A stretch of DNA of 21,959 bases from a virus. The position numbers and the translations under genes were made by a program. The notes under the pieces were generated by a model that worked only from the letters and a program-made list of their open reading frames with translations, was not told where the DNA came from and searched no databases. Location: IMG/VR virus record IMGVR_UViG_3300042429_000463, positions 1-21,959 of that record; one strand, 5' to 3'. Positions within the stretch are counted from its first letter, which is position 1. Every line of letters begins with the position of its first letter. This document shows, one piece after another, positions 11,477 through 13,391 of the stretch.

Positions 11477-11722
11477 TTAATCGTATTTGTTAAGGTCTAT
11501 ATGATAGTCAGAAAGTAATTCAAAGAAGCGTTCATAGACTAACTCAATTACTTCATATTTATCTACTTCTTTATTATCTAATGACCACTCAAGACCCTTC
11601 TTTGAATTTCTCGCAAATTCCCAAAGTACCATGTACATATTATGAGCATCCAATGACATACCAAGTCTACGCTCGTCATCAATATCAAAGTTGTCAAGGT
11701 CATAGTTTATCGTTACTTTCAT
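11477..11722 (-). CDS. Small acidic phage protein of unknown function (81 aa)
   Basis: The function is unknown. The protein opens with MKVTINYDLDNFDIDDERRL and continues with AHNMYMVLWEFARN (about 26-39), then a helical region rich in Glu and Tyr. The 'A-x-N-M-Y-x-V-L-W-[ED]-F' segment is one I recall in small proteins of unrelated tailed phages, so the family is probably widespread. It is the last gene of the early small-gene operon; its start overlaps the previous stop (ATGA), and a strong hairpin follows its stop codon after 6 bases. Confidence 0.7.
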   Translation of the reverse strand: MKVTINYDLDNFDIDDERRLGMSLDAHNMYMVLWEFARNSKKGLEWSLDNKEVDKYEVIELVYERFFELLSDYHIDLNKYD

Positions 11723-12039
11723 ATAGCTTTTGGATTACAAATTGAACAATTATAAATTAAATCATTTTTTCCATACCAACCTTCCAAATATCCGCATTCA
11801 GTACATTTTATTATATAGTTTTCATTATAATAACCCTGTGCTTCTTTATAAAGATTTTCATATGAATTACCATCTAATAAATATCCTTTGCTTACATATG
11901 AATGTATTATCTGAGCCTCTTCCATTGCTAACGCATTTTGCATCCATTCCATTAACATATGCCATTCATAACTATGTAAACTTATTGAAGAATCTAATTG
12001 TTCATTCAACCATTGTACTGCGGTTTGTTTCTTATTCAT
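11719..12039 (-). CDS. Paralogue 1 of the QTA-family small proteins, with C-terminal zinc ribbon (106 aa)
   Basis: The opening MNKKQTAVQWLNEQL and the later ALAMEEAQIIHSYVSKGY and EAQGYYNENY are the three landmarks shared with the three related genes upstream. Unlike them, it continues with a ribbon: C79-x2-C82 (CTEC) and C98-x2-C101 (CSIC), a likely zinc-binding site. The function is unknown; such proteins are common in Bacteroidota phages, where a start like 'K-Q-T-A-x-x-W-L' is typical. I start at ATG 12039 because a longer reading would overlap the upstream gene by 80 bases and lose the family start. The remaining overlap is 8 bases. Confidence 0.75.
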   Translation of the reverse strand: MNKKQTAVQWLNEQLDSSISLHSYEWHMLMEWMQNALAMEEAQIIHSYVSKGYLLDGNSYENLYKEAQGYYNENYIIKCTECGYLEGWYGKNDLIYNCSICNPKAI

Positions 12040-12220
12040 GGCTTTCTGATTTAAACGTATTATCATAATAATTATACGGAATGATATCCTGTATTCCTGC
12101 ATGGTAAGCATCTGTTATTTGTCGCTTCTCCATTTCTTTAGCTTTGTTCAAAGTTTGTTCATAACCTTTAAGATTTAAAACTTCGATAAGCCATTCTAAA
12201 GCTGTTTGTTTCTTTGTCAT
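12032..12220 (-). CDS. Paralogue 2 of the QTA-family small proteins (62 aa)
   Basis: The shortest member: MTKKQTALEWLIEVLNLKGY, then AKEMEKRQITDAYHAGIQD, then YNYYDNTFKSE. These landmarks match the neighbours in the same order. The 'A-x-E-M-E-K-x-Q-I-x-x-A-Y' block is the most conserved. It is small, soluble and charged, without known function. ATG 12220 lies 1 base after the stop of the upstream paralogue, which supports this start over the earlier ATG at 12262 that would overlap it. Confidence 0.75.
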   Translation of the reverse strand: MTKKQTALEWLIEVLNLKGYEQTLNKAKEMEKRQITDAYHAGIQDIIPYNYYDNTFKSESHE

Positions 12221-12221
12221 A

Positions 12222-12467
12222 TTACTTTGATTTATATGTTTCGTTATAATAATCTTCTGCATCTTGGTCTGAGCATGGATATCTATCAGATTGATAAGCG
12301 ATAACTATCTGCTCTTTTTCCATTTCGAGTGCTTCCATACATTCTTCCAAAATTTTATACAAATATAACCTACAATCTGGAGTATTATACTTTTCAATAT
12401 ATGGTGATTGCCTGTCAATTCTTTTCTGTATTTTTTCTATAATACATTCAATAGCAGTTTGTTTCAT
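12222..12467 (-). CDS. Paralogue 3 of the QTA-family small proteins (81 aa)
   Basis: The family landmarks are MKQTAIECIIEKIQKR at the start, ALEMEKEQIVIAYQSDRY in the middle and DAEDYYNETYKSK at the end. I start at ATG 12467, where the family begins; a reading from 12602 would run through the palindromic element and into the methyltransferase end. This gene lies directly downstream of the methyltransferase cassette, with element 2 in its leader. Its function is unknown. Confidence 0.75.
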   Translation of the reverse strand: MKQTAIECIIEKIQKRIDRQSPYIEKYNTPDCRLYLYKILEECMEALEMEKEQIVIAYQSDRYPCSDQDAEDYYNETYKSK

Positions 12468-12502
12468 AGTATTTTTGTAACAAATTAAACAATAATTTTG
12501 TA

Positions 12503-12562
12503 GCGCATATACATTTGTATTGGTTGTATTGGAGCATTGCGTGTATATATTAGTTATGTGCC
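12503..12562. repeat. Palindromic element 2, left border of the methyltransferase cassette
   Basis: On the plus strand ATATACA (12507-12513) pairs with TGTATAT (12542-12548). The loop contains a tandem 9-mer TTGTATTGG (12515-12523 and 12524-12532). The element ends in GTTATGTGCC (12553-12562), the exact inverted copy of the 10-mer at 13085-13094 on the other side of the methyltransferase. Outside that, TATATA precedes the 10-mer in both elements. Confidence 0.6.
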
Positions 12563-12565
12563 ATT

Positions 12566-13054
12566 TTAAGAAACAGCATCGTCCTTTATAAAGCATATCC
12601 AATGTGTTTGCATTTTAATACCGCTTTTATGCCCATATAAAGGTTTTTTATCGGTAAGTTTTAGTATTTCTTTTACTGGAAATTTAACTTCATTCCATTT
12701 GAATATTAGCGTTCCATTTGGTTTTAAAACTCTAAAACATTCTTCAAATCCTTTGCGTAACATTTCACGCCAATCGCCTTGCAAAGCACCGTATTTCTTT
12801 GTTATTTGGCTATCATTCATTTGTTCAATGTGTGGCGGGTCAAAAACAATATGCCAAAATGAATTATCAGGCTGTTTAATGTCTGTAAAATCACCAATAA
12901 TATCAGGTGCAATAATATTTGTTTTTGTTCCACAGGGGTAAGTATCAATATGAGTTTCAAACCTCCTATCTAAAAACAATGCTCTTTCATCCTGCTTATC
13001 AAACCACATTCCTTTTGGTCCACAACAAACATCTAAAACTTTTTTCTCTTTCAT
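12566..13054 (-). CDS. SAM-dependent methyltransferase of a phage-borne family (162 aa)
   Basis: A class I methyltransferase: motif I is LDVCCGPKGMWF (7-18), an acidic residue ends strand 2 (LDRR, 28-31), GDFTD (54-58) is the next loop and FDPPH (71-75) is motif IV, the place of DPPY in adenine/N4-cytosine methylases. LKPNGTLIFKWNEV (110-123), a GHKSG loop and THWICFIK near the end complete a layout I recall from many phages, including those of Firmicutes. The substrate is probably DNA but is not proven. No restriction enzyme is adjacent. It sits between two members of a paralogue row, flanked by inverted palindromic elements, which suggests insertion as a unit. A role in protecting phage DNA from restriction is plausible. 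Confidence 0.85.
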   Translation of the reverse strand: MKEKKVLDVCCGPKGMWFDKQDERALFLDRRFETHIDTYPCGTKTNIIAPDIIGDFTDIKQPDNSFWHIVFDPPHIEQMNDSQITKKYGALQGDWREMLRKGFEECFRVLKPNGTLIFKWNEVKFPVKEILKLTDKKPLYGHKSGIKMQTHWICFIKDDAVS

Positions 13055-13084
13055 ATTTCTAAATTAAATTAGTGAATAAAAAAC

Positions 13085-13176
13085 GGCACATAACACCGTA
13101 TATAAAACATGGCTTGATAGGTTCGTACTAACTTGAAACATTTGAGCAAAGCCACGTTTCATATACGAACCGTTAT
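13085..13176. repeat. Palindromic element 1, attC-like fold, right border of the methyltransferase cassette
   Basis: Two 19-base arms (13097-13115 and 13149-13167) pair at 17 of 19 positions, around a 33-base loop. Outside, ATAAC (13090-13094) pairs with GTTAT (13172-13176), leaving small internal loops. The outer half contains the stop codon of the upstream gene (TAA at 13175-13173). A competing structure pairs GGTTCGTA (13120-13127) with TACGAACC (13164-13171). The shape resembles an integron attC site, but the core boxes do not match the consensus fully. It carries the 10-mer GGCACATAAC (13085-13094). Confidence 0.6.
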
Positions 13177-13391
13177 ACAAAGGTTTTATCAAAATATTCT
13201 TCTCCAGTTCTTAGATTCCTTTCTTGCTGGTCTATCGCCCTTTGTTCATAGGCTTTGACTATCAGTTCGCGTTCTAAGGTTTGAAGCTGCATGATTTTTT
13301 CCGCTAATCTCATGCAAAGAACGTCATAAGGCATTCTATTTTGAGATACTTTATAGAACTCAATCAGTTCCGTTAGTGCTGTCTTTTTCAT
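13173..13391 (-). CDS. Paralogue 4 of the QTA-family small proteins (72 aa)
   Basis: A more distant member: MKKTALTELIEFYKVSQ at the start, LQTLERELIVKAYEQR in the middle and GEEYFDKTFV at the end fit the pattern of the three paralogues on the far side of the methyltransferase (T-A-x-x-x-L-I-E; E-x-x-I-x-x-A-Y; E-x-Y-[YF]-[DN]-x-T-[YF]). The function is unknown. The start ATG at 13391 overlaps the upstream gene by 32 bases, and the stop codon lies within palindromic element 1, as gene ends often do in cassette structures. Confidence 0.7.
   Translation of the reverse strand: MKKTALTELIEFYKVSQNRMPYDVLCMRLAEKIMQLQTLERELIVKAYEQRAIDQQERNLRTGEEYFDKTFV

Follow-up and report, generated by a model that had tools for sequence, protein, structure and literature searches.

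Phages of Bacteroidota Appear to Exchange a Hairpin and Methyltransferase Unit in the Way Bacteria Exchange Integron Cassettes

Introduction

In the pdif modules of Acinetobacter plasmids and in other Xer-exploiting elements, gene units are flanked by inverted Xer-like sites, which are conserved double-strand sites of 28 bp; the units described here likewise hold genes between inverted Xer-like sites, with the difference that their cores are variable and self-complementary and that a structured hairpin is added. We know of no XerA-like enzyme that serves as a cassette recombinase. In the reverse integron, the array follows the integrase gene, and the canonical neighbours examined in this work agree with that order. 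Integrons are known as bacterial devices; at the same time, attC sites and integrons in phages have already been described (PMC9892861), and in the Polaribacter phage P12002L attC sites were reported, one of which was recombined by IntI1 in vivo (PMC9892861). The accepted view is that hairpin recombination requires the I2 helix (PMC7790495), a view that a phage-borne version of the integron would put to the test; such a version would also explain rapid swaps of small genes (anti-restriction and unknown) in near-identical phages. A search of the open-access literature found no description of a phage integron with its own Xer-like recombinase.

The locus analysed here lies in a viral contig of 21,959 bases, the whole of which is referred to as the window, with large phage genes on the minus strand. 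With the phage integron cassettes and CALIN of Qi et al. 2023 (PMC9892861) it shares one-gene cassettes, hairpin sites, complementary core boxes and methyltransferase cargo, as well as the occurrence in lytic phages, including a Polaribacter phage with a hairpin of the present architecture; however, activity is attributed there to a bacterial IntI, whereas some of the present phages encode a recombinase without I2; here, in addition, each gene has its hairpin on the 5' side and is directed toward the attI-like site, and G.T mismatches stand at fixed places. The reverse integron of the Treponema denticola type (PMC4909258) similarly has a recombinase gene that is co-directional with the cassette genes, but in the present phages the array precedes the recombinase gene and the hairpin is 5' of the gene. 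Sequence comparison makes it very probable that the window unit is one gene cassette belonging to an integron-like system in phages of Bacteroidota. As judged from its sites and genes, the system works like an integron, yet it lacks two of the tested defining features, namely an IntI with I2 and an attC site 3' of the gene.

Anatomy of the Cassette

The features of the locus, all on the minus strand, are as follows.

12554..13172, minus: mobile unit (cassette) of about 619 bp, made up of hairpin, core, methyltransferase and complementary core end
13095..13171, minus: attC-like hairpin, with 4-nt spacer, 7 bp, G.T, 4 bp, G.T, further stem and 2-nt spacer
13085..13094, minus: R'-like core box, GTTATGTGCC on the minus strand, which begins the coding part
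12566..13054, minus: cargo DNA methyltransferase of 162 aa, with motifs DVCCG and DPPH
12553..12562, minus: R''-like core box, GGCACATAAC on the minus strand, complementary to the cassette's own start
12537..12552, minus: attI-like site TAATATATACACGCAA (consensus TAnnnTATAnnCGCAA; score 11/11)
13173..13391, minus: paralogue 3, the upstream neighbour, whose stop codon TAA overlaps the AAC target
12222..12470, minus: paralogue 4, the downstream neighbour (MKQTA...), outside the unit

A preliminary description of this locus had started from an exact 10-mer pair, GTTATGTGCC and its reverse complement at 12553-12562 and 13085-13094, and the pair was re-located at these positions. Taken by itself, the pair is no evidence and its significance was rejected, because exact 10-nt inverted pairs at a spacing of 100-1500 nt number 82 in the window and 82.7 in simulated sequence; the inverted match does grow to 15 nt with one mismatch (12553-12567 / 13080-13094), an extension (15/14) that is rare, arising in 1 of 40 simulations. 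The methyltransferase is the sole ORF between the 10-mers, as had been proposed, but the proposed unit of 542 bp was too short, since about 619 bp, from 13171/13172 to 12553/12554 and with the right hairpin included, belong to it. These limits were inferred from two IMG/VR relatives (L021 and L022) in which the unit is alike and the flanks are different, together with the exact occupied and unoccupied sites of L068/L140 and of the Freya phages, and they place the crossover inside AAC at both unit ends (AA|C or AAC|).

Larger hairpins had been described beside both 10-mers, which holds on the right only. The right hairpin (13095-13171) folds as DNA at -14.2 kcal/mol with a z of -3.4, and 0/200 shuffles were as good; a second hairpin on the left was rejected, its fold being not better than shuffles (z about +0.3 to +0.9). 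The left element is rather the putative target site, because its AAC end scores 11/11, the top and sole such score among the 962 AACs of the window. A unit bounded by inverted palindromic elements, as first portrayed, is therefore the wrong anatomy: the sole hairpin is within the unit, on the 5' side of its gene, and an attI-like target forms the other border. The unit has what is expected of a cassette in its attC-like hairpin, its core boxes and an R'' complementary to its own start; it departs from a canonical cassette in that the hairpin lies 5' rather than 3' of the gene and the genes point toward, not away from, the attI-like site.

The unit splits a row of small paralogues (KKTA/KQTA proteins), two members of which it separates, in accordance with the preliminary description. 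Small KQTA-type paralogues (window 11719-12470 and 13173-13391) recur beside such cassettes at three other loci (L070, L075, L135), and in L135 the cassette also lies between two of them. A protein search found no relatives of paralogue 4.

The Hairpin Family and the attI-like Motif

With the genes written from left to right, the general unit reads AAC | G-hairpin - GTT core - gene - complementary core ending in AAC. Distinct hairpins, defined by the quality of their stem, number 50; in 48 of them a G.T mismatch occupies a fixed place, always with the G in the 5' arm, and these fixed mismatches of constant polarity stand in place of clear extrahelical bulges; exactly this architecture, common to 48/50, is that of the window hairpin. 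About a dozen stem columns contain several pair types across the distinct hairpins, i.e., they covary, and a comparable stem is formed at 2.8% of random GTT sites.

The unit ends fall into two kinds. Inside arrays, AAC is followed by the G of the next hairpin in 19/19 ends, and at terminal ends of arrays AAC precedes TAnnnTATAnnCGCAA or a sequence related to it, and 19 of these 35 ends score 8 or more of 11; among 6,428 control AACs, 0.6% reach that score, a comparison that is descriptive because the motif was derived from these same ends. Moreover, the attI-like motif alone is not diagnostic, since the pattern CACATAACTnnnnTATAnnCGCAA also matches an unrelated conserved stretch (L155, L157, L159, L160, L162 and L163).

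One Shell with Many Genes

Two relatives of the window methyltransferase in IMG/VR are 97% (L021) and 93% (L022) identical as proteins, and both are carried in one shell, hairpin-GTTATGTGCCGTTTT-gene-AAAATGGCACATAAC, outside whose AAC the sequence is unrelated on both sides; more distant homologues of the methyltransferase are mostly without such flanks. A scan for GTTATGTGCCGTTTT returned 95 stretches, many with hairpins and some of them chance matches. A search for the borders with other cargo between them had been proposed, and it succeeded in IMG/VR, where at least ten different genes, at 18 loci in all, are preceded by one near-identical hairpin with GTTATGTGCC. In a DNA search of a phage collection, the window region and the commonest hairpin gave methyltransferase matches only, or none. 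Comparison of the loci shows a module that carries many different genes and is inserted at different genomic sites. One observation counts against the explanation preferred below: nearly the same methyltransferase is found in two different hairpin/leader shells (window 12566-13054 as against L021, L022, L081 and L153), for which simple cassette exchange does not account.

The window methyltransferase matches the PHROG 954 DNA methyltransferase with an E of 3.6e-62, and its Pfam N6_N4_Mtase match is weak. Among 29 representative cargo proteins, five have matches to MT-A70, five to N6_N4_Mtase, and one each to Dcm, Dam and DnaJ, many being without a match. Protection of phage DNA from restriction was proposed for phage cassettes by Qi et al. 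(PMC9892861), and the cargo types found here, as read from their sequences, fit that proposal; the probable role of the window methyltransferase is to methylate the phage DNA and so guard it from host restriction. In several cargo ORFs the shell encodes the last residues (VS, VAL), or the start is in frame with the core (MCRF).

Occupied and Unoccupied Sites

Two viral contigs, L068 and L140, are 99-100% identical around the insertion site. L140 has four hairpin-gene units exactly between GCTAAC and TATTATATGTA, and in L068 GCTAAC abuts TATTATATGTA; a recombinase follows the site in both, and one cassette has moved place. Similarly, the cultured Polaribacter phages Freya_1/2/5/7/8/10 hold inserts of 0/842/1744/2216/4040/4942 bp, respectively, at AAC|ACCCCTATAAC, just before the integrase gene, and the flanks of the six isolates are 100% identical over 1.6 kb. 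The Freya hairpins are less uniform, because only some in these arrays pass the stem test applied to other phages. Juxtaposition of such genomes shows insertion that is precise at an AAC adjoining the attI-like sequence, and it shows close phage relatives that gain, lose and reorder cassettes before a recombinase.

The paper describing the Freya phages reads the integrase as pointing to temperate potential, and it uses neither the word cassette nor the word integron. These Polaribacter phages, in which the insert at one site ranges from 0 to 4.9 kb of cassettes, suggest that an integrase gene there need not mean lysogeny, and as cultured phages they make phage-cassette exchange directly testable. 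As co-isolated genomes that differ in cassettes at one integrase-side site (L248-L259, Freya_1-10), they constitute a natural experiment, one that the paper describing them does not mention.

For the window phage itself, cassette-free relatives had been called for, and they exist in part. L260 and L261 are syntenic with it, at about 75-80% nucleotide identity in aligned stretches, and in both paralogue 3 is directly followed by the orthologue of the 11477-11722 gene (MKVTINYDLDN), with no cassette; the empty site is not exact, because paralogues 4, 2 and 1 are also absent from them. Relatives found by the terminase of the window phage were too distant to yield an empty site. The earlier proposal of a non-autonomous mobile cassette is nevertheless borne out, given that other genomes have different cargo in the shell and that cassette-free relatives exist; the adverse outcome, in which relatives have no empty site and the 10-mer is absent elsewhere, was looked for and did not occur.

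The Phage Recombinase

Where a recombinase is present, its gene immediately follows the cassettes and shares their direction. Relatives of one such recombinase were found at 27 viral loci, preceded by AAC and a TA[CT]TATATGTA-like motif, the gene following an AAC-TA[CT]TATATG-like motif at recombinase loci; in 18 of 23 recombinase loci an exact inverted match to the terminal R'', at least 10 nt long, lies upstream, and the cores vary by locus. A primary site next to the integrase, at which cassettes enter as they do at the attI of an integron, is seen in the exact insertions of L140 and of the Freya phages, and the window has the attI-like motif with no recombinase. Comparison of these loci shows, in a subset of phages, an attI-like site directly followed by a dedicated XerA-like gene, with arrays of one to several cassettes upstream that point toward the gene.

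The closest family of the recombinase is XerA (NF040815), with 184-206 bits against a cut-off of 220, and the enzyme aligns contiguously to the archaeal XerA-like 4A8E; the difference from that family lies in its linkage here to phage cassette arrays. With the integron integrase model TIGR02249 it reaches 149-155 bits (cut-off 265), and it aligns to IntI4 (2A3V) in two blocks that leave out about 48 aa of IntI4. The distance between GxRxxE and HxLRH is 86-94 aa in the phage recombinases versus 133 in IntI, and an IntI with I2 is accordingly not what these phages encode. In a tree, IntI forms a separate clade (100/100), and the phage enzymes form a well-supported group of 22 plus a pair, the union of which is weakly supported. 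On these alignments the recombinase is XerA-like and without the I2 insertion of integron integrases. Host XerA-like recombinases were rejected as a source, being about 38% identical, with no linked motif plus pair among those checked.

Two further observations count against the preferred explanation. No tyrosine recombinase was found in the 22-kb window record, or in most contigs with GTTATGTGCC cassettes, such a gene being present in 3/35 viral records with cassettes (a set to which L068 and L140 do not belong). Moreover, the motif TA[CT]TATATGTA of the recombinase-bearing phages differs from the TAnnnTATAnnCGCAA of window-type ends.

Proposed Mechanism

Once the cassette is free, its ends GGCACATAAC and GTTATGTGCC would close the hairpin into an attC-like folded site, of which the recombinase would exchange one strand with attI at AA|C; exchange of a single strand is suggested by the structure and because only 3 nt are common at the junctions. 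An orphan cassette such as that of the window would have been placed by a recombinase from a co-infecting phage, from the host or from an unsequenced part of the phage. We favour, by a modest degree of belief, the more general reading that Bacteroidota phages encode their own mirror-image integron, in which a XerA-like recombinase that evolved apart from IntI recombines folded hairpins without I2 and keeps in circulation a pool of small genes that is specific to phages and rich in methyltransferases.

Alternative Explanations

An improbable alternative, albeit the best of those considered, is that these are canonical integron cassettes from host chromosomes, inserted by a bacterial IntI, with the phages as passive carriers. 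The phylum searched (that of G027) is rich in true IntI genes, with an integron integrase over the cut-off in 70/247 genomes, and the attC of P12002L recombined by IntI1 (PMC9892861) comes from a phage in which, as in P12002S, hairpins of the present type occur: the scan found one of the G.T architecture in P12002L (L263), which may differ from the IntI1-recombined attC, and several in P12002S (L262). However, viral contigs contain the cassette start far more often, at 35 places, than do 257 Gb of bacterial and archaeal genomes, in which 8 stretches were found and one of these is a CRISPR spacer; an origin of the cassettes in host chromosomes was rejected on that scan. In the canonical arrays beside IntI, which served as controls, the hairpin is on the 3' side of the gene and the array comes after intI, whereas the phage arrays terminate at a recombinase of the phage's own that is without I2. 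In three examined genomes of the same phylum, the first cassette is downstream of intI, i.e., in reverse-integron order.

Slightly less credible still is ordinary double-strand Xer-like recombination at dif-like sites, in the style of IMEX or pdif modules, with the hairpin as a terminator or regulatory element. It would agree with the XerA-like nature of the recombinase and with TTGCGnnTATAnnnTA-GTTATG, which, read in reverse, bears what we take to be a likeness to a dif site. Two-strand exchange by tyrosine recombinases proceeds over an overlap of 6-8 bp, for which the sites that recombine would offer too little, because they have AAC alone in common and their next bases vary by cassette and match their own partner only; in addition, the hairpin moves together with the unit, and it keeps both its architecture and the polarity of its mismatches, with covariation in the stem.

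The last alternative, a MITE-like transposon that is non-autonomous, has terminal inverted repeats and is moved by a DDE or HUH transposase, is suggested by the short inverted repeat that closes the 542-bp core unit, but it can hardly be credited. The hairpin stands beyond that repeat on a single side and yet belongs to the mobile unit; insertion occurs only at AAC beside the attI-like motif; the arrays run head to tail; and the linked enzyme is a tyrosine recombinase. The occupied and unoccupied sites contradict it, with no duplication beyond AAC at the junctions, and the unit ends in a hairpin on one side and a core box on the other.

Hosts

The cassette family is assigned to phages of Bacteroidota because of a CRISPR spacer match in a Bacteroidales MAG, cassettes in MAGs named Bacteroidetes and the cultured Polaribacter phages, an assignment made for the family as a whole. 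In the lytic Polaribacter phages P12002S and P12002L, the G.T hairpins lie within gene blocks that hold methyltransferase genes. A 44-kb contig in a Nitrosotalea MAG (JAHEYD010000008; L153/L154) contains the common hairpin in two cassettes, of which one carries a methyltransferase like that of the window, and is probably a misbinned Bacteroidota phage contig.

The spacer is that of a Bacteroidales MAG (L150, JAFGVU010000015.1, 4643-4677), where TTGCTTATACACGGTGTTATGTGCCGTTTTTATT matches the hairpin arm, core and leader of the cassette family, so that this bacterium appears, from the match, to have been immunised against the common shell rather than against one phage gene. The spacer next to it, GTGTTATGCAATCG, may match another core.
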